Of a stretch of DNA of 25,531 bases, positions 2,639 to 25,531 are shown piece after piece. The translations under genes and the position numbers were made by a program. The stretch covers positions 1-25,531 of the IMG/VR virus record IMGVR_UViG_3300007038_000010. One strand, 5' to 3'. The stretch is from a virus. The notes beneath the pieces are model-generated. The model made no database searches, was not told the origin of the DNA, and saw nothing but the letters and a program-made list of their open reading frames with translations. The stretch's first letter is position 1, and the number at the start of each line of letters is the position of its first letter.

Positions 2639-2956
2639 ATGGTTACCTTTGATCACATAAAAGGCGGCACGTTCGAGCTCCTGATGAAGTTGGAGCACGA
2701 CGAGCAGCCCCAGGCCATAGGCGGGTGGAGCATAGAGAGTCAGTTGAGGACGATGACCGGCGAGCTGGTAGCGGACCTCAACGTGGTGATCACTAGCGCC
2801 ACCGAGGGCAAGTTCGTGATCAGCCATCCAGCGAGCGGGCAGGACAATTGGCCCGCAGGGGATCTTCAAGGTGACATGAAAATCACGCGGCCCGATGGGA
2901 CGGTTCTGCCGTCTCAGCCTTTCCGTGTCCGCGTGTTTGGTGAAATAACCATGTAA
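2639..2956 (+). CDS. Small beta-rich tail-associated protein
   Basis: This 105-aa protein is predicted to be mostly beta strands (FELLMKLEHD, LNVVITSA, KFVISHP, FRVRVFGEIT). The pattern resembles the short immunoglobulin-like or BppU-N-terminal-like sandwich domains that sit before tail fibres in many phages, but this is a pattern match, not a firm family call. The ATG at 2639 is preferred over a GTG at 2624 because the upstream extension would cover the predicted -10 box. No Shine-Dalgarno is visible; see the promoter at 2604-2632. It is followed 12 bases later by the large spike gene, preceded by GAGG, so the protein may help attach or assemble the spike. Confidence 0.65.
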   Translation: MVTFDHIKGGTFELLMKLEHDEQPQAIGGWSIESQLRTMTGELVADLNVVITSATEGKFVISHPASGQDNWPAGDLQGDMKITRPDGTVLPSQPFRVRVFGEITM

Positions 2957-2968
2957 GGGCCGAGGCAT

Positions 2969-5641
2969 ATGGGGTCTTTCGGATACACCGCCGTCGAGGA
3001 AAACACCGGGTACCGCATCAAAGTGGTATACGGGCAAGGTGCGCCGGGGACCCAGGGTCCGGCTGGCCCCTCCGGGCCGCCGGGGCCGTCCGTCGAGCTC
3101 AGGCTCGAGGGCGAGGAGGTCCAGTGGCGCATCGAGGGCGAAGAGAACTGGCTCAAGCTCATGGACATCGTCACCCTGACGGGCCCGATGGGGCCCGATG
3201 GTCCCCAGGGTCCGCCGGGTGAAACCGGCGAGGATGGGCCGCCCATCGAGCTTGCCGTGGCGGATGGTGCCATTCAGTGGCGCGTTCAGGGCAGCACCGA
3301 GGAGGACTGGGAGCCCCTGATCGAGATGGTCAGCCTGGAGGGTCAGAAAGGCGAGCCGGGGTTCGACGGGGAGAACGGCACGGGCTTCGTGTTGCAGGGC
3401 CAGGTGGCCACCACCGCTGACTTGCCTGGTCAGCCGGAGATCGGAGATGCGTACCTCATAGGCAACGACGTGCATCTGTGGGGGTACAAGAACGGTAACG
3501 CATCACCGGAATGGATCGTCGTCGGCGACGTGAGCATCTCGCAGTCCACGTTGGACCTGCTGGCGCGCAAGAAGGAGCTGTACTTCCGCCAGATGCGGCC
3601 CGGGGACAAGAAGTCGGCGTTCTCCAGGCTTAACGATGGCGACTGGGATAATGGCGATGATCCGGCGGGCATCGTCACCAATTCACCTGACGACGGGCGT
3701 ACCCTGAGGGTAGAGGGGCAGCATGTTATCGCCACCCGCGAGAGGGTGGCGATTGAGTCGAACAGGGTCTATGAGCTCAGGGCCAAGGCACGTCGCATTG
3801 CCGACCCATCCGACCCGGCCAACGACGCCATCACGGTACACGTTTCGTGGCTTGACGAGAACATGGCCGTGGTCTCGCGTGTGCAGCTGGCCATGAAAGA
3901 GCTAAATGCGAGCAACGACGACATGCTCGACGTCGAGATGGCGATTTCGAGGGAGCTTTATACTTACGGCTTGCTGGGTGGATGCGCCCAGACCCAGGCG
4001 ACCGAGGTCAAGCAGGCTTACACGCCGCCCGCTGGTGCGGTCTACGCCGTGCCTTACATTCGTGTCTACGGTGCTGATTCGGTCACGGACATCATCCACC
4101 TGGAGATGCGTGATGGTTCGACATACGGGGACTTCTCGAGGCTGGCTCTGCCGCCTGACTACAGGCTGCCCCAAGAAATCACGCCGGGCCCTGTTGTTCC
4201 TCAGACCATCTTTGTGTCCGCAGAAGGTGGTGACGACGCCAGTAACGGCAAATCCATGGGCTGCGCCGTAAAGTCACTGGAAAGGGCCATGGAGATCGTG
4301 GAGACCCAGGCGTTGCCTCACGCCGTGGAGGTGCTGCCTGGCAAATACGAGACCTCTGGCCATATCGACGTGCCGGACAACTGTTCCGGCGTAGTGGCCG
4401 CGACGAACTCGAGGTCTACCAAGATTGTGCCCACGCCTGGCAACGAAGAGAAGAACGTGCTGCGCATGGGTGATGGGGGATATGTCGAAGGGTTCAGCTT
4501 CGAGGGTTGGCAGATAGACGACATGGACAACCCCAGCGAAGGGTTTGCCGTAAGCTTCCGCCCTGGTGCGATCATCCGCAGGTCTGTGTTTGCCTTCAAC
4601 ATCACGGTCTTCAGGGCCACGCCGGCCACGCTGATTCCGCCCCCGGTGGATCCCGAGAACGGCAACCCCCTGGTCCCCAAGGGCCCAGGGGTAGGCTTGG
4701 CCGACAAGTCTGTCGTGAGCCAGTACAGCCCGTTCCCTCAGCTGATGCTTTGGGGTGCTACGCCGGTGTGCCCCAACGGTATCGGGTATGTGGCCAAGAA
4801 CGGGGCGTTTCTCAACGGGATCAACGCAGTCGCCTTGTGGATGCACAAGCACTACATGGCCCTGTCTGGTGGGGAGATCGTGCTTACGAACTGTGCCAGT
4901 CAGTTCGGTGACTATTCAATATGGTCAGAAGGCTACACCTACCGAATCGAGCCCGAGTTCACCACCGCCAGCATGGTGGTCGATGAGTCCGTTGCTGATA
5001 CCATCGCCAACAACAAGCAGGCGATCATCAACGGCATGTGGAATTACCTGCAAAACAACGGCTACGGAGGCGTGAACGAAGAGTTCACCAAGCGTGATGC
5101 AGGGTTCTACTTAACAGCGTTGGAATATGACCTTCGTGCTGGCCAGCAAGAGAGCATGAGGCGCTTCGCCAAGGGAATGTTTGACTACGCTGGTGACTTC
5201 GTGGCCACGTCTGCTTCCATCAGCGGCTTCGAGGCCGGCTGGGACTGGATGCGTGACGATGTGAAAGCCAGGGTTGGTGCTTCTGGGCCATTGGCCACCA
5301 TGATTGATGAGCTCAATCGCATAGTAAAAGACACTGTGAACAACCCTGAGAAGATCCTCAAGCCTTCCAAGGTCACTTCGGTTGGCCACCAGTGGAACAA
5401 CAATTTCGCAGGGGTCAATGCCCGTGCTCTCGATCGCCCCACGCGCGAGGTCTACGACTCGATTGTCGAGCGCGACTTCGGTACCGTTACCTACTCCGGT
5501 GTAGATGACTCCGGTAAGCAGTTCTTTACCGGAGGCGCACTCGTCAACCCGCTCACAGGCCAGTTCGAAGGTCCGCCCGTGGACCGAACCATTAACCCCA
5601 GAGCCATGCGGGCTGCAATCATCGCAGGAGGAATGTACTAA
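2969..5641 (+). CDS. Tail spike/fibre with collagen-like repeats and predicted beta-helix
   Basis: This 890-aa protein is the probable main receptor-binding spike. Residues 24-41, 72-92 and 124-138 are Gly-X-Y collagen-like tracts (GAPGTQGPAGPSGPPGP and similar). Between them are two copies of a short motif of the type IQWR..G...W..L (about 51-64 and 101-118). Residues about 415-560 look like the start of a right-handed parallel beta-helix of tail spikes and pectate lyases (IFVSAEGGDDASNG, then a Lys-Ser-Leu-Glu segment and HAVEVLPGKYETSG). The region after about 690 is helical and ends in a Gly-rich tail (IAGGMY). Catalytic residues for glycan cleavage cannot be assigned. GAGG lies just upstream of the ATG. 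The stop overlaps the next start (TAATG), so the following accessory genes are coupled. Function is inferred from domain pattern and position. Confidence 0.85.
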   Translation: MGSFGYTAVEENTGYRIKVVYGQGAPGTQGPAGPSGPPGPSVELRLEGEEVQWRIEGEENWLKLMDIVTLTGPMGPDGPQGPPGETGEDGPPIELAVADGAIQWRVQGSTEEDWEPLIEMVSLEGQKGEPGFDGENGTGFVLQGQVATTADLPGQPEIGDAYLIGNDVHLWGYKNGNASPEWIVVGDVSISQSTLDLLARKKELYFRQMRPGDKKSAFSRLNDGDWDNGDDPAGIVTNSPDDGRTLRVEGQHVIATRERVAIESNRVYELRAKARRIADPSDPANDAITVHVSWLDENMAVVSRVQLAMKELNASNDDMLDVEMAISRELYTYGLLGGCAQTQATEVKQAYTPPAGAVYAVPYIRVYGADSVTDIIHLEMRDGSTYGDFSRLALPPDYRLPQEITPGPVVPQTIFVSAEGGDDASNGKSMGCAVKSLERAMEIVETQALPHAVEVLPGKYETSGHIDVPDNCSGVVAATNSRSTKIVPTPGNEEKNVLRMGDGGYVEGFSFEGWQIDDMDNPSEGFAVSFRPGAIIRRSVFAFNITVFRATPATLIPPPVDPENGNPLVPKGPGVGLADKSVVSQYSPFPQLMLWGATPVCPNGIGYVAKNGAFLNGINAVALWMHKHYMALSGGEIVLTNCASQFGDYSIWSEGYTYRIEPEFTTASMVVDESVADTIANNKQAIINGMWNYLQNNGYGGVNEEFTKRDAGFYLTALEYDLRAGQQESMRRFAKGMFDYAGDFVATSASISGFEAGWDWMRDDVKARVGASGPLATMIDELNRIVKDTVNNPEKILKPSKVTSVGHQWNNNFAGVNARALDRPTREVYDSIVERDFGTVTYSGVDDSGKQFFTGGALVNPLTGQFEGPPVDRTINPRAMRAAIIAGGMY

Positions 5642-6129
5642 TGCCCAGGATCATTACCCGTCAACCTGCGGTCGCACGTCCAGTCGGTATCTACGTGGCC
5701 GGTCTTGGCACCACGTTCAACGAGGTCATAGAGGTGCCTGACTACTCGGTACCGGATCCGAACCGGAACTGGCCCAACTCTCGTGACCCCAACGATGACG
5801 ACCGTCGTATTGTCCCGGGGATGGTGATGCTCGAAGCACCGCTTTTGTGCCATAACACCAGCACCAGCCCGGTCATTCTCGAGATCAGGATCTTCCCTGA
5901 AGACCAAAACAACGGTGTGATGCAGGCGCGCATCGAAATACCTGGTCAGGATACCTACCAGCATCCCGTCCCTGGGCAACGTCTGGTGAAAAGGCAGATC
6001 ACTTCTATTAACGGCGACAGCCTGCAACTCAAAGCCAGTGTAGGAGGTGTGGTACACGTAACAGGTGCTGCTTCGGTGGGCTCTGCTGAGCAAGATCAGC
6101 CGCCACAGCTGGGCCTGAACACGCCATGA
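5641..6129 (+). CDS. Predicted tail/virion accessory protein
   Basis: This 162-aa protein starts at an ATG that overlaps the spike stop codon (TAATG) and ends in an ATGA overlap with the next gene. It is beta-rich (ILEIRIFPED, QARIEIPG, LQLKASVGGVVHVTG) with a basic, proline-containing N-terminus (MPRIITRQPAVARPVG) and a polar C-tail. It has no membrane segment. Position directly behind the spike and the beta-rich core suggest a structural or spike-associated protein. No family is recognised. Confidence 0.7.
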   Translation: MPRIITRQPAVARPVGIYVAGLGTTFNEVIEVPDYSVPDPNRNWPNSRDPNDDDRRIVPGMVMLEAPLLCHNTSTSPVILEIRIFPEDQNNGVMQARIEIPGQDTYQHPVPGQRLVKRQITSINGDSLQLKASVGGVVHVTGAASVGSAEQDQPPQLGLNTP

Positions 6130-6425
6130 GCAGGTTTCTCAGGGACGACCACTACCTGATAGCGACGAAGAGGTCCACTTCGTCGCTGGTACCCCGTGTT
6201 TACCCTGTGCAAGCAGACAAAGACCACTATTTCGGGTCGTGGGTAGTGACTGAAACGGGTAACATGTATCGCGTTCTTGAGGGTGATTGGCTTCCTTTCT
6301 TCCCGCCGGGCGCAGAAGTGTTCATTGCACCCTGGTCTCCCATACCTGAAGGCTGGTTTGAGGTCGACGTGACCCTTCCGGCAGAGTATGATGGGCACAA
6401 GGTGATAACCAACGTCCAACCGTAG
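6126..6425 (+). CDS. Small tail-module protein, paralogous to the N-terminus of the next gene
   Basis: This 99-aa protein contains SWVVTETGNMYRVLEGDWLP, a short run, then IAPWSPIPEGWFEVDVTLP. The same layout is found in residues 37-90 of the downstream 525-aa protein (AWVVTESGTMHYSTGEEWL, then IPPWASVPEGWF). The shared module (W-V-V-T-E-S/T-G, P-W, P-E-G-W-F, then V-T-N) suggests duplication of a virion-attachment or chaperone-like domain. It overlaps the previous gene by ATGA and is followed by the longer paralogue 8 bases later. Its function is inferred: a stand-alone copy of the module might cap, anchor or compete with the larger protein. Confidence 0.7.
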   Translation: MSRFLRDDHYLIATKRSTSSLVPRVYPVQADKDHYFGSWVVTETGNMYRVLEGDWLPFFPPGAEVFIAPWSPIPEGWFEVDVTLPAEYDGHKVITNVQP

Positions 6426-6433
6426 GGGCCTTC

Positions 6434-8011
6434 ATGAGGTATCTAAACGACAGACCGTTTCTGTCAGGCCGTGCTGTCAGCTCCCAAAGGCTGATAACGG
6501 AGGAGTACCCTATAGAGCTTGATCCTGCTCGGTACAAAGGTGCCTGGGTGGTTACGGAGAGCGGAACTATGCACTATTCAACCGGAGAAGAATGGCTCGC
6601 TTCGGGCCCGCCTCGCGTCGAGGTTATGATACCGCCCTGGGCTTCTGTGCCAGAGGGCTGGTTCCGTACCGGTCTATCTTTGCCTTCTCCGCTGGGCAAT
6701 CGCGAACTCGTTACCAACAAGTTCGATTTCAACTACGTTCAGCAGAAGATGGTAGGCAGGTACCAACCTGCCTTGGGCAAAATGTGGACTACCTACGATA
6801 GGTCTGTCCAGGTCACTTCGCCGGGGGATCTGATAGGGTCTGTAGAAGACCTCACAGGGCTTGGTCACAAGGCTGAGCAGGTCGTTTCAGCTGACCGCCC
6901 ATTATACGACGAATACCCTGTTGGCCATTCAATGGAAGGCAAGCCCTACTTCGACTTCTCTGCTCTGGGCGACATGTTCGATATCCAGCTGAGTCAGTCT
7001 TACTCGGGAACCCTGGTGGTAGCCATGGAGCACGGGATATACGACGTGGGCTACTCTTCTACCGGGGCAGTAGGATTTGGTTACGGAGGCACAGATCCTG
7101 TCTACGAGGTCTTTTTCTTCGATGAGGCCCTAAGCGTAACGGAGCTCCAAGGGTTCAAAGACTTCCTCGAGTCTGATTCTGGCCACGTGAAAGACAACTT
7201 CGCTGCTAAGACTGACTGGTCTAACACATTCAAGAACATGGATTACATCACTTCGGCACCGGACGTCGATATGTCTAGTGCAGATAGTGTGGGTGGCCTT
7301 TTTGAAGGGTGCAGTTCGCTCCAAAGCGTCCCGCAGTACGACTGGACAAACGTAACATCAGCCGATTCCACTTTCGCTAACTGCGGCAATATGGCGCCTA
7401 TGCCGGCCATTGATATGCCGAACTGCTCTCTAATACGTGATGGATGGCAGAACTGTACCGGCTTGCAGTCTTTCCCACAGATTGATCTGTCATCAGTTAC
7501 ATATGGTAAAGGCGCATTCTATAATTGCGGGTTCACGTCTTTTCCGGCCATAAACATGCCGCTTAACAGTAACTTCGTGAACATGTGGAGTCAGTGCTCC
7601 AACATGCAGATTTTTGACGCCGGCGATATGTCTTCTGGTGAAGACTTTCAGGGCGCTTGGAATGGCTGCTCCGCCCTCACTGAGTTTCCTGCTTTCGTGT
7701 TTCCTTCTTCGGCTACCAGGTTCTACTACACCTGGAACGGCTGCACACTCATGCAAACCTTTCCGGCGGGTGCATTCGACAACGTCAACGCCACTGAGTT
7801 CACCAACGCCTTCACGGATTGCGGCTTGAACCAGCAGAGTGTGGACAACATCCTGGTCTCTATCAATAACGCAGCGCAAGCCAACGGGCTCACAGGTGGT
7901 ACCTTGAATATCGACGGTGGCACTTCCGCTGCTCCGAGTACGACGGGCGAGAGCGCCATAGATAATCTGAGAGCTGCTGGCTGGACAGTAACGGTTAACG
8001 GAGGCTACTGA
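6434..8011 (+). CDS. BspA-type leucine-rich-repeat tail protein with LamG-like segment
   Basis: This 525-aa protein has three visible parts. Residues 1-97 carry the module shared with the upstream 99-aa protein. Residues about 110-245 resemble a shortened concanavalin/laminin-G-like domain (an AEQVVSADRPLYDE segment, GKPYFDFSALGD, and a closing EVFFFDEALSVTELQGF). Residues about 245-470 are BspA-like leucine-rich repeats of about 22-24 residues with the pattern F-x-N/G-C-x-x-L-x-x-x-P-x-x-D (for example FANCGNMAPMPAIDMPN and WQNCTGLQSFPQIDLSS). The C-terminus (GGTLNIDGGTSAAPS, then LRAAGWTVTVNGGY) matches the usual closing segment of phage BspA-like proteins. Such proteins are expected on the virion surface and may bind host glycans or proteins; binding here is inferred. 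It is coupled to the next gene by TGATG. Confidence 0.8.
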   Translation: MRYLNDRPFLSGRAVSSQRLITEEYPIELDPARYKGAWVVTESGTMHYSTGEEWLASGPPRVEVMIPPWASVPEGWFRTGLSLPSPLGNRELVTNKFDFNYVQQKMVGRYQPALGKMWTTYDRSVQVTSPGDLIGSVEDLTGLGHKAEQVVSADRPLYDEYPVGHSMEGKPYFDFSALGDMFDIQLSQSYSGTLVVAMEHGIYDVGYSSTGAVGFGYGGTDPVYEVFFFDEALSVTELQGFKDFLESDSGHVKDNFAAKTDWSNTFKNMDYITSAPDVDMSSADSVGGLFEGCSSLQSVPQYDWTNVTSADSTFANCGNMAPMPAIDMPNCSLIRDGWQNCTGLQSFPQIDLSSVTYGKGAFYNCGFTSFPAINMPLNSNFVNMWSQCSNMQIFDAGDMSSGEDFQGAWNGCSALTEFPAFVFPSSATRFYYTWNGCTLMQTFPAGAFDNVNATEFTNAFTDCGLNQQSVDNILVSINNAAQANGLTGGTLNIDGGTSAAPSTTGESAIDNLRAAGWTVTVNGGY

Positions 8012-8385
8012 TGACCCTATTCCCTCATATTTTGGTCATAGCGGTCCCTAACCGCATGATGCCTCAAGCCAACCAGCTTGCCCTCGTTATGGGGGAGTCC
8101 AAGTACGATGATCAAACATTCAAAACGGCTTCTTGGGTCGCAAGTGATGGGACTCTAGTGAGCGTTCAGTCCACGAGGGTCAAAGAAGGCTACCTTGACC
8201 CTTTGGGTGCCTCAGCTCTTTCGGCTCCTGTACATTCCCCAGAAGTAAATCTAAGCGCTGCCGAAGAAGCCAGGTCCGTGGTTTCCATGTCGGGCCCGGC
8301 TCGGTACGGCGCAATCGTCTATATCGTGGATAAGGACTATGATACTGCCATGGCTGAGCTTGATGTGAGCGAGCTGGAGCTTTGA
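8011..8385 (+). CDS. Tail-module protein of unknown function
   Basis: This 124-aa protein starts at an ATG overlapping the stop of the LRR gene. It is mixed alpha/beta: a hydrophobic N-terminus (ILVIAVPN), a Trp/Thr-rich middle (TASWVASDGTLVSVQST), a Gly/Ala/Ser segment and a C-terminal AIVYIVDKDYD followed by an acidic tail. The hydrophobic N-terminus is too short and interrupted for a signal peptide or transmembrane helix. No family is recognised. It is directly followed by the heme-oxygenase-like gene, whose GGAG ribosome binding site lies inside its last codons, so the two are probably translated together. Confidence 0.65.
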   Translation: MTLFPHILVIAVPNRMMPQANQLALVMGESKYDDQTFKTASWVASDGTLVSVQSTRVKEGYLDPLGASALSAPVHSPEVNLSAAEEARSVVSMSGPARYGAIVYIVDKDYDTAMAELDVSELEL

Positions 8386-8387
8386 GT

Positions 8388-8909
8388 ATGGATCTAAGTC
8401 TCTACGATAGAACCAAAAGCGTTCACCACGACGCGGAAGAGCATCCATTCGGGAAGCGTATGGCGCATGGCGATATTACGCTTCCCGAATGGGCCGACTG
8501 GCTGGGTGCGATGCAGCAGGTCCATCTGTGGCTTGACCCGTTTCTGCCTCCTTTTCTGCAACGCGGCGGCACGTTGACTTTCGACCTTGCGCAAACTTTA
8601 CCAACTGAGCCTCGAGATGTATCAGCTTCTCACCATTTCATGGCAAGTATGCCTACTGGGCCTGTTAAAGTAGGTGGTGCTGCTTACGTCCTAACGGGGG
8701 CTCATCTGAGGGGCGGAGCAGTTATCCGTAAAAGGCTGATACCCAAAGGGTTTCCTTGTAACCACCTCAGGTTCCATGAACCTAAACTGGCCAACGACTG
8801 GATTGTAGCACTCAGAGAGGCTCCTTACCTGGAGCCTGGTGCTCATGCTGCTTTCGAGTCGATTATCGCCATAATGGACGAGATCGAAGGAAAAACAGCC
8901 GGAGTTTGA
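8388..8909 (+). CDS. Heme oxygenase-like protein
   Basis: This 173-aa helical protein resembles bacterial heme oxygenases, which cleave heme to biliverdin, CO and iron. Near the N-terminus, RTKSVHHDAEEHPFG (residues 8-22) matches the proximal-helix pattern T-K-x-V-H-x-x-A-E, placing His13 at the heme-ligand position. Residues 95-117 (VGGAAYVLTGAHLRGG, then AVIRKRL) match the distal-helix pattern Y-V-L-E-G-S-x-L-G-G-x-V-I, with Gly104, Gly109 and Gly110 placed as in the family. The C-terminal helices (HLRFHEPKLANDWIVAL and an AFESIIAIMDEIE end) also fit. The usual Glu before the distal glycine is Thr103, and the length is slightly below typical (about 180-200 aa). ATG 8388 is chosen because GGAG (8376-8379) lies 8 bases upstream. 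No biliverdin reductase or phytochrome gene is visible nearby. Activity is unproven; it could be a catalytically silent scaffold. Confidence 0.75.
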   Translation: MDLSLYDRTKSVHHDAEEHPFGKRMAHGDITLPEWADWLGAMQQVHLWLDPFLPPFLQRGGTLTFDLAQTLPTEPRDVSASHHFMASMPTGPVKVGGAAYVLTGAHLRGGAVIRKRLIPKGFPCNHLRFHEPKLANDWIVALREAPYLEPGAHAAFESIIAIMDEIEGKTAGV

Positions 8910-8910
8910 C

Positions 8911-9201
8911 ATGCCGAAGAATGCTATCGTGGATATCCCGCCCAGCCAATGGGTAGAGCTCACAGACAACGACGTCACGAGCATCACGTTCCAGAACAAG
9001 GGGTATTCACAGGACTACCACAACATCTTCATCGCCGTTACAGGCGGTGCAACGCCCACATCTCTGGATGGAACGCTCGAGTACCCCCCGAAATACGGCG
9101 AACGTAACGTATCGCTTTCCGACCTTTTCCCAGGTGGGGCTGGTTCGAGGGTATTTGCGTACTCTCAGCATGCTACCAAAATTTTTGTAAGCCATGCGTG
9201 A
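8911..9201 (+). CDS. Small beta-rich virion protein
   Basis: This 96-aa protein starts MPKNAIVDIPPSQWVELTDN and ends SQHATKIFVSHA. The layout (a leading W-x-x-L-T-D-x-D-V, a Gly-rich middle, a DLFPGG segment and a closing Arg-Val-Phe-Ala-Tyr-Ser) is the pattern of short structural proteins common in tail modules of marine and soil podoviruses. It is mostly beta strand, with no membrane segment or signal. GGAG at 8901-8904 lies 6 bases upstream of the ATG. Its last codons overlap the start of the next gene by 8 bases. A decoration or spike-base role is inferred. Confidence 0.65.
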   Translation: MPKNAIVDIPPSQWVELTDNDVTSITFQNKGYSQDYHNIFIAVTGGATPTSLDGTLEYPPKYGERNVSLSDLFPGGAGSRVFAYSQHATKIFVSHA

Positions 9202-9547
9202 TCACGCCAAGGAGACTGAGTTGTTGGATAAGGAGACGACTACCACCTTGCTTGAGCAAGGTGGTATTTGGACAGGGATCATAGCGGGGTTAACCGGTCT
9301 TATAGGCTGGCGCATTGGTGCTGCCAAAGACTCCGTGGTGCTCCAGTATCATGGCAAGCAGATCAATGAGATCGAAAAGCAGCTCAGCGCCCTGTCGAAG
9401 TCACAGACAGACAGCGATCGTGAAACAGCGACTGCTCTAGCTAAGCTCAACGTCACGCTGGAGTCCATGTCGTCCATCATGACAAAGCTGGAGAAACGTT
9501 TGAGCGATGTCGAGCACGACCCTCCCAGGAGACCGAGCGATGACTGA
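9194..9547 (+). CDS. Membrane-anchored coiled-coil protein, probable lysis accessory
   Basis: This 117-aa protein has one predicted transmembrane helix at residues about 24-43 (GIWTGIIAGLTGLIGWRIGA) and a long heptad-like coiled coil after it (QINEIEKQLSALSKSQ, then an ALAKLNVTLESMSSIM stretch). It immediately precedes the endolysin (overlap of 8 bases) and the holin, so it is probably a holin-like, pinholin-regulating or spanin-like lysis protein; no lipobox is visible. The ATG at 9194 lacks a good Shine-Dalgarno, whereas AAGGAG (9209-9214) sits 6 and 9 bases before in-frame TTG codons at 9221 and 9224. A shorter form lacking the first 9-10 charged residues is possible. Confidence 0.65.
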   Translation: MRDHAKETELLDKETTTTLLEQGGIWTGIIAGLTGLIGWRIGAAKDSVVLQYHGKQINEIEKQLSALSKSQTDSDRETATALAKLNVTLESMSSIMTKLEKRLSDVEHDPPRRPSDD

Positions 9548-10163
9548 AACCGTTCGTGAAATCGCTCAGAACATCGTTCGCCGAGAAGGCGGCTTCGTGA
9601 ATGACCCCGACGATCCGGGCGGGGCGACCAAACACGGCGTGACCATTGGCACCATGCGTCGGCTTGGGATCGACCTCAATGATGACGGCGATGTGGACGT
9701 GGACGACGTGCGCAGAGTCGATGAAGACCTGGCTGTTGATCTATTCCTCAAACACTATTACTTCGAACCCGGCATAGATGAACTTCCGAACGAAGACATG
9801 CGTCTTCGTGCCAGTGTATTTGACATGCAGGTCAATGCTGGCTCCAACGCAGTCAAGATCCTCCAAAGACTGGTAACGCGGATGGGCTACAAAACCTCCG
9901 TGGACGGTATTATCGGCCCCAAGACCCTGAAAGCAGTCAAAATGGCTGCCAGGGATGCGCCTGATCACATCACTGATGCCTATGGTGTCGCGCGGCGTAA
10001 CTACTATTTCCGGCTGGCCGATAAGCGTCCCAAGCTGCGAAAATTTGCACGCACCCGCGCTGGTGGCAAAGGCGGGTGGATCAAACGGGCCGAAGAGTTC
10101 ATCTCGCAGCGCTTCCATATGAGTGACGAAGAGTTCCAACGGAGAGTGGCGAAATGGGGTTGA
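9540..10163 (+). CDS. Endolysin: GH108 lysozyme with peptidoglycan-binding domain
   Basis: This 207-aa protein is a phage endolysin that cleaves peptidoglycan during lysis. Residues about 1-90 form a glycoside hydrolase family 108 domain, with the signature REGGFVNDPDDPGGATKHG (15-33) in which Glu16 is the predicted catalytic acid. Residues about 95-185 match the associated peptidoglycan-binding type 3 domain (FDMQVNAGSN, DGIIGPKTLKAV, then KLRKFARTRAGG and GWIKRAEEF). An acidic LNDDGDVDVDDVRR segment (46-59) looks like an insertion with a possible metal-binding loop. No signal peptide is present, so release depends on the holin downstream. AGGAG (9527-9531) lies 8 bases upstream of ATG. Genes on either side overlap it by 8-10 bases. 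Confidence 0.92.
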   Translation: MTETVREIAQNIVRREGGFVNDPDDPGGATKHGVTIGTMRRLGIDLNDDGDVDVDDVRRVDEDLAVDLFLKHYYFEPGIDELPNEDMRLRASVFDMQVNAGSNAVKILQRLVTRMGYKTSVDGIIGPKTLKAVKMAARDAPDHITDAYGVARRNYYFRLADKRPKLRKFARTRAGGKGGWIKRAEEFISQRFHMSDEEFQRRVAKWG

Positions 10164-10732
10164 TAGGAAACATATTAGGCGCTCTTTTTGGCAGCGGTCG
10201 TAACGTCGTCAAAGAAACTGCTGAGGTATTCACGACCAACGCAGAGGCGGCTGACCAGCGGTCTGCACATTTACAGGCTGCCGCGCTAAGACAGATGGAA
10301 AATGAGTTTGGCACGGGTCATGGCTGGTTCCATCGGGTCGTGAATGCGCTCAACCGCCTGCCCAGGCCGCTTATGGCTTTCAGTGTTATGGGTCTTCTGG
10401 GATCCGCAATGATCGCCCCTGAATGGTTCGCGGCTCGCATGCAGGGGCTAGCTTTGGTGCCACAGCCTTTGTGGACCTTCCTCGGGCTGATCGCTACTTT
10501 CTACTTCGGCGGTCGAGAAATGTACAAAAGCCGTGTCAGCAAAATGGCGAAGGAAGCGGCACGGATAACTGCGCAAACTCCGCAGGTACTAGAGAACATT
10601 CGCAAACTGGAGTCGATGCGTGCTGACAGCCCTGGTGCAGCGGATCCTGGCCCAGATGCCGAAGTAAATTTGGCTGCTCTAGAGGAGCATGAAAACCAAG
10701 CGCTCGCCGAATGGAGATCCAGGCGTAGCTGA
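10154..10732 (+). CDS. Holin of the GTA three-transmembrane family
   Basis: This 192-aa protein matches the GTA_holin_3TM family, named from gene transfer agent release. The diagnostic core RVVNALNRLPRPLMAF, then MIAPEWFAARMQGLALVPQP and TFYFGGRE is present at residues 61-122. Predicted hydrophobic segments are an N-terminal amphipathic helix (1-13), TM at about 72-89 and TM at about 103-120, followed by a charged cytoplasmic tail of about 70 residues that is longer than usual. It would form the membrane lesions that let the endolysin out. The ATG lies inside the last codons of the endolysin gene, with GGAG upstream. It ends 5 bases before the convergent terminase gene, with no terminator between them. 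Confidence 0.88.
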   Translation: MGLIGNILGALFGSGRNVVKETAEVFTTNAEAADQRSAHLQAAALRQMENEFGTGHGWFHRVVNALNRLPRPLMAFSVMGLLGSAMIAPEWFAARMQGLALVPQPLWTFLGLIATFYFGGREMYKSRVSKMAKEAARITAQTPQVLENIRKLESMRADSPGAADPGPDAEVNLAALEEHENQALAEWRSRRS

Positions 10733-10737
10733 CCTGA

Positions 10738-12135
10738 TCACGTCCAGGCTCTAGGTGACGGGTGCTTTCTGCTGTGCACCATGTGCTTTCTGCGCTCTTG
10801 CTTTAGCAGACGCCTGCTAACGAAGTTGGTCTGGTGTGCTAATGCTGCGTACTGCATAGCATCATGGATATGGCTGTAGTCGTTCTTATCCGGTAGCGGT
10901 GTCAGCTCACCGTCTTTCCTCTTTTTGTACATGTATCCTCTCATGAACCCTTCTATGAGCGTGGGGCACCCTTCTTTGGAGATAAGCATGTCTGCGGTTT
11001 GCCCGTTGTTTTGAAGCAGGCGTTTTTCTACGGCTTCGATCCTCTTCATGGGGTCGTTAGTGGGTGCGGGCATTGCTTCAAGACCCGCTTGTTTGATTAT
11101 GCTGAATGCACTTGCTTCGGTGTACTGGTCTTTACCCATACCCGCTGGGTCACCCATTACAAACACTTTGTACGATGGATAGTTTTCGTTCAGGAATGGT
11201 ATAAGCTTTTCGTGCAGGAAAGTATGTAGCCCCATATCGGCGCTGTTTACTTCGTGCAAGCAAAGCAGCCTGCCTTTTATGTCTTGCTGAGTGATGATAG
11301 CACACGGGGTCCTTCCAAAGTCCATACCTAGAACAATCGGGAGCATAGGTGTAGGCTTTAGAGTATCATAGACGTGGTGGTCTCTTCGAAACACGGCTTT
11401 GTAGACCGCTTGTCCAAATTGGTCTTCGCCGAACTGAGAATGGACATGTACCTTGATCCACTCATCGCTTTGGCCTTCTGTCAGGCGTTCGTAATAGTCT
11501 TCAGGCAAAAACTCCCGGTTCTCCGCATCCGGGTCGAGTCCGCCTGGCTGGTGGAAAAAGTCCCAATCGTCAGGCTTTTTCAGTACTAGATTTTCGTGGT
11601 AGGGGCTTCCTTGTGACCACGGGTTGGAGATCATGAGCAGGGCTTGCCAAGTAGGTTTCACCCTCGCCATGGACGGGTATCTGCCAATACGCCCCAGAAC
11701 CGATGCAACTACGTTATAGGGCACCTCACGGCATTCTTCGATCATCGCAGAGGTAATGTTCAGGGACAGAAGCTTACGCTGGTCCTCGGGCCTCTCAAGC
11801 GGCATGAGAAGCCAGTCCGACTCAATGTATGTCCCATCACCCAGAGGGAATCGGAACTCCATTGTCTGTGTAGAGACTTTGTGCTCGAAATAGTCTCCGA
11901 AGTACTGCTTGGCGTCTGACAAAACGGTCTCGCGCAGCTGAGCAGCCGTGTTACGCACAATGACGAACCGAGTTGGCCTGATACCTCGGCTATCCGGTTC
12001 TTGTTGTACCATACGTCTGAAAAGCTCCATCTGGCCGCCCATCGACTTGCCAGAGCCAAGAGGTCCAATAATGGCCTTAACCAAGGCATCGGACTTCATG
12101 AATTGAGCGATTGTTTTTGAAGGTTTGTATATCAC
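10738..12135 (-). CDS. terL: Terminase large subunit (DNA packaging ATPase/nuclease)
   Basis: This 465-aa protein is the packaging motor. The ATPase domain shows Walker A GPLGSGKS (residues 24-31), Walker B AMIEECREVP (130-139, catalytic Glu133 or 134) and a coupling motif LLMISNPW (166-173). The RNase-H-like nuclease domain has Asp272 in GMDFGRTPCA, Asp329 in VFVMGDPAGMGKD, and Asp425 in HIHDAMQYAA. The start is GTG at 12135, read leftward, with GAGG 5 bases upstream and a GTGA overlap with the preceding gene. It is leftward, opposite to every other morphogenesis gene here, and converges with the holin gene with 5 bases between stops. The length is near the short end for large terminases but all motifs are present. 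Confidence 0.93.
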   Translation of the reverse strand: MIYKPSKTIAQFMKSDALVKAIIGPLGSGKSMGGQMELFRRMVQQEPDSRGIRPTRFVIVRNTAAQLRETVLSDAKQYFGDYFEHKVSTQTMEFRFPLGDGTYIESDWLLMPLERPEDQRKLLSLNITSAMIEECREVPYNVVASVLGRIGRYPSMARVKPTWQALLMISNPWSQGSPYHENLVLKKPDDWDFFHQPGGLDPDAENREFLPEDYYERLTEGQSDEWIKVHVHSQFGEDQFGQAVYKAVFRRDHHVYDTLKPTPMLPIVLGMDFGRTPCAIITQQDIKGRLLCLHEVNSADMGLHTFLHEKLIPFLNENYPSYKVFVMGDPAGMGKDQYTEASAFSIIKQAGLEAMPAPTNDPMKRIEAVEKRLLQNNGQTADMLISKEGCPTLIEGFMRGYMYKKRKDGELTPLPDKNDYSHIHDAMQYAALAHQTNFVSRRLLKQERRKHMVHSRKHPSPRAWT

Positions 12136-12485
12136 TGGTACCTCGGCTTCGAGATGCTGACTTCCGACAAGTCGAAAGAAGAGTAGAACTCTCCTTCTTC
12201 TTCATTCTCATGTCTGAATATCAAGAAAGATACGTCATCCACGTTTTCCGAATCCACGTAGGGAAGACTGTACAGAGTAGCCGAGTCATCTTCATCGGCA
12301 TATACTATATCGGTGTTGAGGATGGTGTGCACTACACCTACCAGGCTGTTTTCGTATTGAACCACGTCGCCGGGGGTGATCCTACTCTGGTATTGACGAA
12401 AAATCCACGTCCAGATGGAATTTAGGATCTTCATCTTTTCTGCTGGATCCAGATCCACTTCTTTCAGGGTGCTCGAGATCATCAT
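12132..12485 (-). CDS. Small protein between the terminase genes
   Basis: This is a probable 117-aa protein starting MMISSTLKEVDLD at 12485, chosen because GGAG lies 9 bases upstream; a longer reading frame to 12635 would lie wholly inside the small-terminase gene. The N-terminus is helical (AEKMKILNSIWTWIF). Residues about 33-110 look like a small beta barrel (ITPGDVVQYENSLVGVVHTI, DIVYADEDDSATLY, then VSFLIFRHE) of the kind that binds proteins or nucleic acids. It overlaps the end of the small-terminase gene by 104 bases in another frame, and its stop overlaps the large-terminase GTG. Unknown family. A third packaging component or a regulator of terminase assembly is inferred from position. 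Confidence 0.55.
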   Translation of the reverse strand: MMISSTLKEVDLDPAEKMKILNSIWTWIFRQYQSRITPGDVVQYENSLVGVVHTILNTDIVYADEDDSATLYSLPYVDSENVDDVSFLIFRHENEEEGEFYSSFDLSEVSISKPRYQ

Positions 12486-12996
12486 TGCTGGATGCTCCGA
12501 AAACCTCTTGAAGGTTTCCTCCGGCGTCTCCTCCCGGCAAAGGTTGTGCTTGCGGTTCGTGGTCAATAGTCTGTCCTCCGACGCTGATGGGCTCTTCTTG
12601 GGAGCCCAGGAAGATCTGGATTGCAGGTACTCCACCGCCTGTCGTACCTGCGTTTGCGGATTCGACTTTTGCTATATCTTTCAGTTCCTTAGCTGCTGCG
12701 ACCCGGGCTTGCGCGCTTTCTTTCCTGTTGGAAAGGATCTGGTAGAGGTCGAGTAGACCCTCTTCGAGAGCCAAGGCCGCTTTTGCTTGCAAACGCTTTT
12801 TCACGTTATCCATAGATTCCCAATCCTTTTTGGCTTGGCGAATCATATCTTGGAAATACGTGTTATTCAGAAGCCTCTCACCTTCGTCTTTGGAGAGGCC
12901 GTGCCTTTTGAAGACCTCTTCTGGCGACTGGAGCCCAGTAGCGAGATCGTTTGCCAGTGCTGCGGAGAAATCTTTTAGCTGGTGTAGCTCGTTCAT
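12382..12996 (-). CDS. terS: Terminase small subunit (putative)
   Basis: This 204-aa protein recognises phage DNA for packaging in the proposed role. The N-terminal region (residues about 5-60) has a helix-turn-helix-like pattern (FSAALANDLATGLQSPEEVFKRHGLS in part), and residues about 65-120 form a helical oligomerisation-like segment (KAALALEEGLLDLYQIL, then ARVAAAKELKDIAKVE). The C-terminus, from about residue 120, is Gly/Ser/Pro-rich and acidic and is probably flexible, ending DFSSIPE. This layout and the position just before the large subunit support the call. AAGGA lies 8 bases before the ATG. The gene is divergent from the portal with only 49 bases between starts. Confidence 0.75.
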   Translation of the reverse strand: MNELHQLKDFSAALANDLATGLQSPEEVFKRHGLSKDEGERLLNNTYFQDMIRQAKKDWESMDNVKKRLQAKAALALEEGLLDLYQILSNRKESAQARVAAAKELKDIAKVESANAGTTGGGVPAIQIFLGSQEEPISVGGQTIDHEPQAQPLPGGDAGGNLQEVFGASSNDDLEHPERSGSGSSRKDEDPKFHLDVDFSSIPE

Positions 12997-24783: not shown

Positions 24784-25531
24784 ATCCAGCGGCCCAGCAG
24801 ATAGTGCAAGATACGGTAGGCGCCATCATGAAAGCCAATGACCCGAGAGAAGCAACTGCCGAAGAGGTAGCCAACGCTGTAGTGTCGATGATGATGCAGC
24901 CTGAGTCCAATTTCAGGTTTGTCGGGGGCGATGAGGTCGATACGCCCAATGGCGTGGTTATCAATGGTTCGCAATACAGGCTGACTCCGAAGGACCGCAA
25001 GATCCTGGAAGAGCGGTTCATTGGCATGCGCAAGACCATGATGAGGGAGCATTACGAAGACCTGTCCCCGGAACAGAAGCAGAAGGTCAGCAGGGTAGAC
25101 TTCGTCAGGGCGTTTGATCTGACCGATGAGAACGGTGATCTCCGCGGCTTCAGCACCGTGAAAGGCGCTGAGCGTGTATCGGAAATGCTCAGTCGTGATC
25201 TTTCGCAGCTTCCGGAGTCTCCTACTCCACCTCGCTTCGGAGGTGAGGAAGCTCAGGCGGACCCTGGTGGTCCTATGGGATTGAGACGCAACGGAGTACC
25301 ACAACCTACCCCTGGGTATGAGGGCCTCGATAGTACGCCCGTTGGTGCGCCCACTCCGAGGGACCAGGCCAGGCGTCAAGGCGGCCAGCAAGGCGGCCAG
25401 CAAGGCGGCCAGCAAGGCGTCCAGCAAGGCGTCCAGCAAGGCGGCCAGCAAGGCGGCCAGCAAGGCGGCCAGCAAGGCGGCCAGCAAGGCGGCCAGCAAG
25501 GCGGCCAGCAAGGCGGCCAGCAAGGCGGCCA
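24699..25531 (+). CDS. Ejection protein, 3' part (continuation after frameshift; runs off the window)
   Basis: This frame, one base back relative to the 5' part, is open from 24675 (after a stop at 24672) to the window edge without a stop. It reads VPDDGSATANWAANSPFHN, then helical segments (VDPAAQQIVQDTVGAIMK, KDRKILEERFIGMRKTMMRE), an Asp/Glu-rich mixed region, a Pro-rich linker (SQLPESPTPPRFGGEEAQ), and a tandem QGGQ tail from 25377. Codon pattern and composition match the upstream part, so it is probably the rest of the same protein. An independent start at ATG 24828 or GTG 24804 cannot be excluded, but has no clear ribosome binding site. The C-terminus is unseen. Confidence 0.65.
   Translation, partial: MPDDGSATANWAANSPFHNIDENGDVRVDPAAQQIVQDTVGAIMKANDPREATAEEVANAVVSMMMQPESNFRFVGGDEVDTPNGVVINGSQYRLTPKDRKILEERFIGMRKTMMREHYEDLSPEQKQKVSRVDFVRAFDLTDENGDLRGFSTVKGAERVSEMLSRDLSQLPESPTPPRFGGEEAQADPGGPMGLRRNGVPQPTPGYEGLDSTPVGAPTPRDQARRQGGQQGGQQGGQQGVQQGVQQGGQQGGQQGGQQGGQQGGQQGGQQGGQQGG
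25377..25531 (+). repeat. 12-bp minisatellite encoding QGGQ repeats
   Basis: There are about 13 head-to-tail copies of CAAGGCGGCCAG (the 13th is cut by the window edge). All are identical except units 4 and 5, which have GTC for the second GGC codon, giving QGVQ. The run stays in the frame of the ejection protein. The window ends inside it. Confidence 0.95.

Follow-up and report, generated by a model that had tools for sequence, protein, structure and literature searches.

A stand-alone heme-oxygenase-like gene in the tail-fibre/lysis gene run of a phage genome fragment

The ORF at positions 8388 to 8909 of a 25,531-nucleotide viral record (the window, meaning the whole stretch of DNA that we analyzed) almost certainly encodes a member of the heme oxygenase (HO) superfamily. 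Judged by sequence, its product, P0001, appears nearest to the bacterial phytochrome-linked (BphO) type. We found relatives in a second phage record (P0002) and in a prophage region (P0003). The explanation that we favor, by a modest degree, is that P0001 is a stand-alone, late-made, BphO-like HO of a phage lineage which cleaves heme with host reductant and so releases iron.

Canonical HOs break down heme and release its iron. To our knowledge, HOs are not often seen in viruses other than those of photosynthetic bacteria, and phage HOs have so far been explained by pigment supply in photosynthetic hosts or sit in bilin reductase cassettes. Phage HOs are known from cyanophages and from alaS/hemO/pcyA cassettes of freshwater phages, and the vHemO of phage CB_2, a proposed Methylocystis phage, was shown to be active (PMC11480375). 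A first reading of the window from its sequence alone had described phage HOs as established for cyanophages, which is correct, but they are not limited to that group. Functional HOs of proteobacterial phages are thus already known, and what is new here is the stand-alone setting in a tail/lysis operon, of which we found no description in the part of the literature that our search covered. The genes of this region are as follows.

2969 to 5641, plus strand: fibre-like gene with a collagen-like stretch (PF01391, E 2.8e-4, below cut-off)
6434 to 8011, plus strand: LRR_5-like, probable fibre gene of the same run (PHROG 34853 of unknown function, E 9e-25; LRR_5, E 0.003, below cut-off)
8011 to 8385, plus strand: small gene directly upstream of P0001, without a family match
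8388 to 8909, plus strand: HO-like gene, P0001, 173 aa (BphO profile 36.0 bits, AlphaFold2 and PDB matches)
8911 to 9201, plus strand: small gene directly downstream of P0001, without a family match
9194 to 9547, plus strand: small protein with a hydrophobic segment and a coiled-coil-like region, by eye possibly lysis related (weak coiled-coil matches)
9507 to 10163, plus strand: endolysin with GH108 and peptidoglycan-binding domains (PF05838, 8e-21; PF09374, 2.6e-25)
10154 to 10732, plus strand: holin, GTA_holin_3TM (PF11351, 1.2e-20)

Profile matches and predicted fold

We built an HMM from 78 bacterial BphO-type HOs, which were fetched by a DNA pattern for YVLEG[ST]xLGG. With all window ORFs searched, P0001 matched this HMM at 36.0 bits with E 8.5e-11, while the second-best window ORF scored 3.8 bits and 10,000 composition-preserving shuffles of P0001 and P0002 reached at most 9.0 bits. 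Against the Pfam family PF01126 (Heme_oxygenase), P0001 reached 13.2 bits, short of the curated cut-off of 23. Two Rhizobium BphO-type proteins used as controls also fell below it (19.9 and 22.6 bits). Since some bacterial BphO-type proteins miss the cut-off too, missing it does not exclude P0001; the cut-off is a reporting threshold and not a defining trait. In the reverse direction, a profile made from the three phage proteins only gave five matches over 397 Rhizobiales genomes. All five were BphO-type ORFs, and at least three of them adjoin a phytochrome-like ORF, as read by eye from the ORF start. PHROGs and NCBIfam held no informative match for P0001, and NCBIfam missed the bacterial BphO-type controls as well.

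The AlphaFold2 model of P0001, made with a 76-sequence alignment, had a pLDDT of 90.1 and a pTM of 0.86; a two-sequence model had a pLDDT of 36.6. The model predicts an all-alpha HO fold that depends on the alignment; it supports the homology, but not independently of the profile search, since that alignment consists mostly of bacterial HOs. The top PDB matches of the model were rat and human HO-1 and HmuO (Z 18 to 20, about 170 residues, 2.3 to 2.6 Å), with rat HO-1 at Z 19.7 and 2.5 Å over 172 aligned residues. With Foldseek, HOs were found throughout the top 50. The earlier description of the gene as heme-oxygenase-like is therefore borne out by the BphO profile, the predicted fold, and a PDB list led by HO-1 and HmuO, although Pfam alone stays below its cut-off.

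The HO fold is shared with other families, and a Shewanella HO-like domain (3dde, Z 15.3) and CT610 (Z 13.8) followed lower in the same PDB list. P0001 could on this basis be a thiaminase/CADD-like protein or an HO-like diiron oxygenase and not a heme protein. We consider this very improbable, as the Z scores of HO-1 and HmuO exceed those of 3dde and CT610, the forward and the reverse profile search both lead to BphO, and Pfam gave P0001 no match to a different HO-fold family.

Residues of the predicted heme site

In canonical HOs, the heme is held between the proximal and distal helices, and its opening consumes three O2 and seven electrons and yields biliverdin, CO, and Fe(II) (PMC6018153). 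The HO-1 pocket is lined by His25, Tyr134, Gly143, and Arg183, and a G143H mutation inactivates the enzyme (PMC5623701). The corresponding elements of P0001 are listed below.

8412 to 8438, plus strand: proximal-helix motif T9-K-S-V-H13-H-D-A-E17, with the His13 codon (8424 to 8426) corresponding to HO-1 His25
8661 to 8747, plus strand: distal helix, model residues 92 to 120 (DSSP on the model)
8685 to 8717, plus strand: distal-helix motif Y100-V-L-T-G-A-H-L-R-G109-G110 (alignment)
8814 to 8816, plus strand: Arg143, probable counterpart of HO-1 Arg183 (alignment), invariant in the three phage proteins

Both helix patterns that had been read from the sequence are present, the distal one running from Y100 to I113 (Y-V-L-T-G-A-H-L-R-G-G-A-V-I). 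His13 also proved to lie at the proximal-ligand position, as had been proposed. Its column is 99% His in bacterial HOs in the BphO alignment, and in the PDB alignment it superposes on HO-1 His25 with a 12-residue structural offset. The distal helix of P0001 (YVLTGAHLRGG) is one residue longer than that of BphO (YVLEGSxLGG) and has the Tyr-to-GlyGly spacing of HO-1 (YTRYLGDLSGG). The distal glycines G104, G109, and G110 are present, with an ambiguous register against HO-1 G139 in this longer helix. HO-1 Asp140 is not kept in P0001, as is also the case in BphO. The distal motif of P0003 (YVLGGATLMGG) has the same length as that of P0001. That of P0002 has the BphO length, and GS replaces GG, so that the second glycine is lost.

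T9, H13, E17, Y100, V101, G104, G109, R143, A152, and F156 are invariant in P0001, P0002, and P0003. P0001 keeps 18 of the 23 columns that reach 80% conservation or more among the BphO proteins, at about 20 to 25% overall identity, although conservation in the YVLEGS..LGG columns says little because the bacterial set was fetched by that motif. At 23 to 31% identity, the three phage proteins still retain the proximal His along with several columns of the pocket, which suggests selection on the heme site.

P0001 thus resembles the BphO-type proteins of Rhizobium, Sphingomonas, Methylobacterium, and Pseudomonas in the proximal T-x-x-x-H, the distal Y-V-x-x-G with GG, the C-terminal A-x-x-x-F, the length (about 175 to 200 aa), and the 36-bit profile match. 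It differs from them in its low identity (20 to 28%), the longer distal helix, the change of the Glu and Ser of YVLEGS to Thr and Ala, and its place in a phage tail/lysis operon with no phytochrome neighbour. Compared with canonical HO-1 and HmuO (PDB 1DVG, 4G7L, and 1IW1), P0001 shares the fold over 172 residues, the position of His13 on His25, and the Tyr-to-GlyGly spacing; however, it is about 20% identical to them, is shorter, and does not keep Asp140.

Gene neighbourhood, partner genes, and proposed role

By the ORF reading, the P0001 gene starts at ATG 8388 and stops at TGA 8907 to 8909. It begins 2 nt after the upstream stop (8385) and ends 1 nt before the next ATG (8911), and the GC content is level across it. 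From 5641 to 10732 the genes of the window all run in one direction and are almost gapless, and a scan of 5600 to 10900 gave no terminator-like site. The close packing agrees with the translational coupling that the sequence-only reading had claimed, but the genes do not overlap unless the alternative start at TTG 8382 is used, which would give a short overlap with the upstream gene. The same reading had placed the gene between LRR and virion genes. The fibre-like and LRR-like genes upstream fit this, whereas the genes downstream are lysis genes (endolysin and holin) and not virion genes. Since P0001 lies in a tail-fibre/lysis run, it is probably made late in infection.

The lysis genes are separated from the portal gene by a minus-strand stretch (10738 to 12996) with the terminase large subunit and an adjoining gene, and the same opposed terminase arrangement occurs in Rhizobium phage RHph_TM27A and in the record of P0002 (L085). 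Upstream of the tail genes, at 1603 to 2493, lies a DHH phosphoesterase gene (PHROG 4771, E 1.1e-79).

The window and the L085 record, both fragments, showed neither a bilin reductase (PF05996) nor a ferredoxin gene; genomes of relatives are about 53 to 68 kb. The genes directly beside P0001 are not reductases. The earlier statement that a bilin partner is missing thus holds for this 25,531-nt fragment. Judged by gene context, P0001 is like the phage hemO bilin cassettes (those of cyanophages, hemO-pcyX, and the alaS-hemO-pcyA of CB_2) in being a phage-encoded HO, some of these phages having proteobacterial hosts (PMC11480375). Unlike P0001, which is alone in a tail/lysis operon, the cassette genes are accompanied by bilin reductases, alaS, or both.

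In the mechanism that we propose, P0001 would bind heme through His13, take electrons from a host ferredoxin or flavodoxin, and open the heme to a biliverdin, CO, and Fe(II), and the phage would profit from the iron that this takes from host heme. We regard this iron as the likeliest benefit because we saw no phage enzyme that uses biliverdin, and iron supply has been proposed for a proteobacterial-phage HO (PMC11480375). An active HO could instead serve the phage through biliverdin or CO, as chromophore for a host bacteriophytochrome, as antioxidant, or in signalling. BphO, the closest family, does supply biliverdin to phytochrome in bacteria (PMC6018153). Nevertheless, we regard this as unlikely, given that no phytochrome gene adjoins P0001 (its neighbours are fibre genes, small genes without family, and lysis genes), that no bilin reductase was found in the fragment records, and that the gene has a late tail/lysis position.

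That position is also not where a metabolic gene is expected, and it counts against iron release from heme, as do the lost Asp140, a distal-helix length unlike that of BphO, the GS for GG in P0002, and the lack of a reductase or ferredoxin gene among those found. Given its altered distal residues and its site among tail and lysis genes, P0001 might instead have a structural or heme-binding function.

Phage relatives and host

The portal of the window is 48.5% identical to that of RHph_TM27A and is more distantly related to portals of HMO-2011-type phages of marine alphaproteobacteria. From this relatedness, the virus probably infects alphaproteobacteria. Among 80 IMG/VR portal relatives, many of them short, only L085 has a similar gene. 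That gene encodes P0002 (198 aa, 20.8 bits against the BphO profile) and is followed immediately by an endolysin-like gene, past which lies the terminase. Between the fibre and HO-like genes, L085 carries two further genes (2932 to 4731), one exonuclease-like (PHROG 284, E 6e-41) and one of PHROG 6047, a family of unknown function, which suggests that the accessory genes at this site vary from phage to phage.

P0003 came from a search of 385 alphaproteobacterial genomes, in which it was found in G290 (prophage region L293; E 1.4e-17). About 40 nt separate the P0003 gene from a tail-fibre gene downstream, which the fibre-like gene at 2969 to 5641 of the window resembles (E 1.5e-7), and a phage virion gene (PHROG 684, E 8e-166) occurs in the region as well. 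The longer distal-helix pattern occurred twice in the 385 genomes, once in P0003; the other occurrence contains an in-frame stop codon and was set aside as chance. A further search with P0003 in 398 genomes of the phylum gave no more relatives.

In an IQ-TREE phylogeny, the three phage proteins formed one group (support 96/94, 95% of bootstrap trees), although this grouping may be due in part to long-branch attraction, given the length of the phage branches (1.15 to 3.34) and the selection of the bacterial set by a motif. The best viral fold matches in BFVD were A0A6J5KN38 and A0A6J5RJ96 (query-normalised TM 0.87 and 0.81, 24% and 20% identity), proteins of uncultured Caudovirales that are named HO-like in UniProt. 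None of P0001, P0002, and P0003 had a meaningful match when searched as protein against phage and plasmid collections, and no P0001 relatives were present at loci fetched through the endolysin. No bacterial-type HOs were found in viral contigs with a conserved-peptide-string scan, a method that would miss divergent copies. One viral-contig match (L002, E 2e-5) lay out of frame inside a terminase gene and was rejected as chance. The only record labeled as phage with a BphO-like match was that of Acinetobacter phage MD-2021a, and this was rejected as well. In that stretch (L289; CAKLQH020000010.1, 90293 to 102832), the HO gene sits among fecA, TonB, and other chromosomal-looking genes, and the stretch is probably bacterial DNA deposited in a phage record.

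All three phage copies adjoin tail-fibre or lysis genes. This fits a reading in which an HO-fold protein was reused for a tail or lysis task, e.g., as a fibre assembly factor, a minor virion protein, or a heme-binding accessory, and does not cleave heme. The packing of P0001 in a unidirectional run with no terminator-like site, its diverged distal residues, and the lost glycine of P0002 are in keeping with such reuse. However, the proximal His, along with several pocket columns, is retained in all three proteins despite their divergence, and since most of the 80 portal relatives, many of them short, show no such gene, it is not a standard tail part. We therefore hold reuse to be a real but clearly weaker candidate than iron release from heme.

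A stand-alone late-operon HO with relatives in a second phage and in a prophage region would suggest that heme breakdown serves a further purpose in infection, most likely iron, and P0001 is a small protein suited to testing this. It is conceivable, though rather doubtful, that these proteins form a phage-specific HO lineage that is a standing tail-fibre/lysis accessory of alphaproteobacterial phages and acts on heme iron either as infection ends or within the virion. If so, heme breakdown would have a use unrelated to pigments.

Two repeats were observed elsewhere in the window. Each copy of a 66-nt direct repeat (452 to 517 and 947 to 1012, 98% identical) lies at the start of a minus-strand ORF (168 to 470 and 570 to 965), and both products begin MTNRPT; a leader or promoter region seems to have been duplicated here. 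At 25377 to 25531, a 12-base tandem repeat, CAAGGCGGCCAG, encodes a Gly-Gly-Gln-Gln run in the last ORF; its 12.9 copies reach the end of the record and may mark where assembly stopped.
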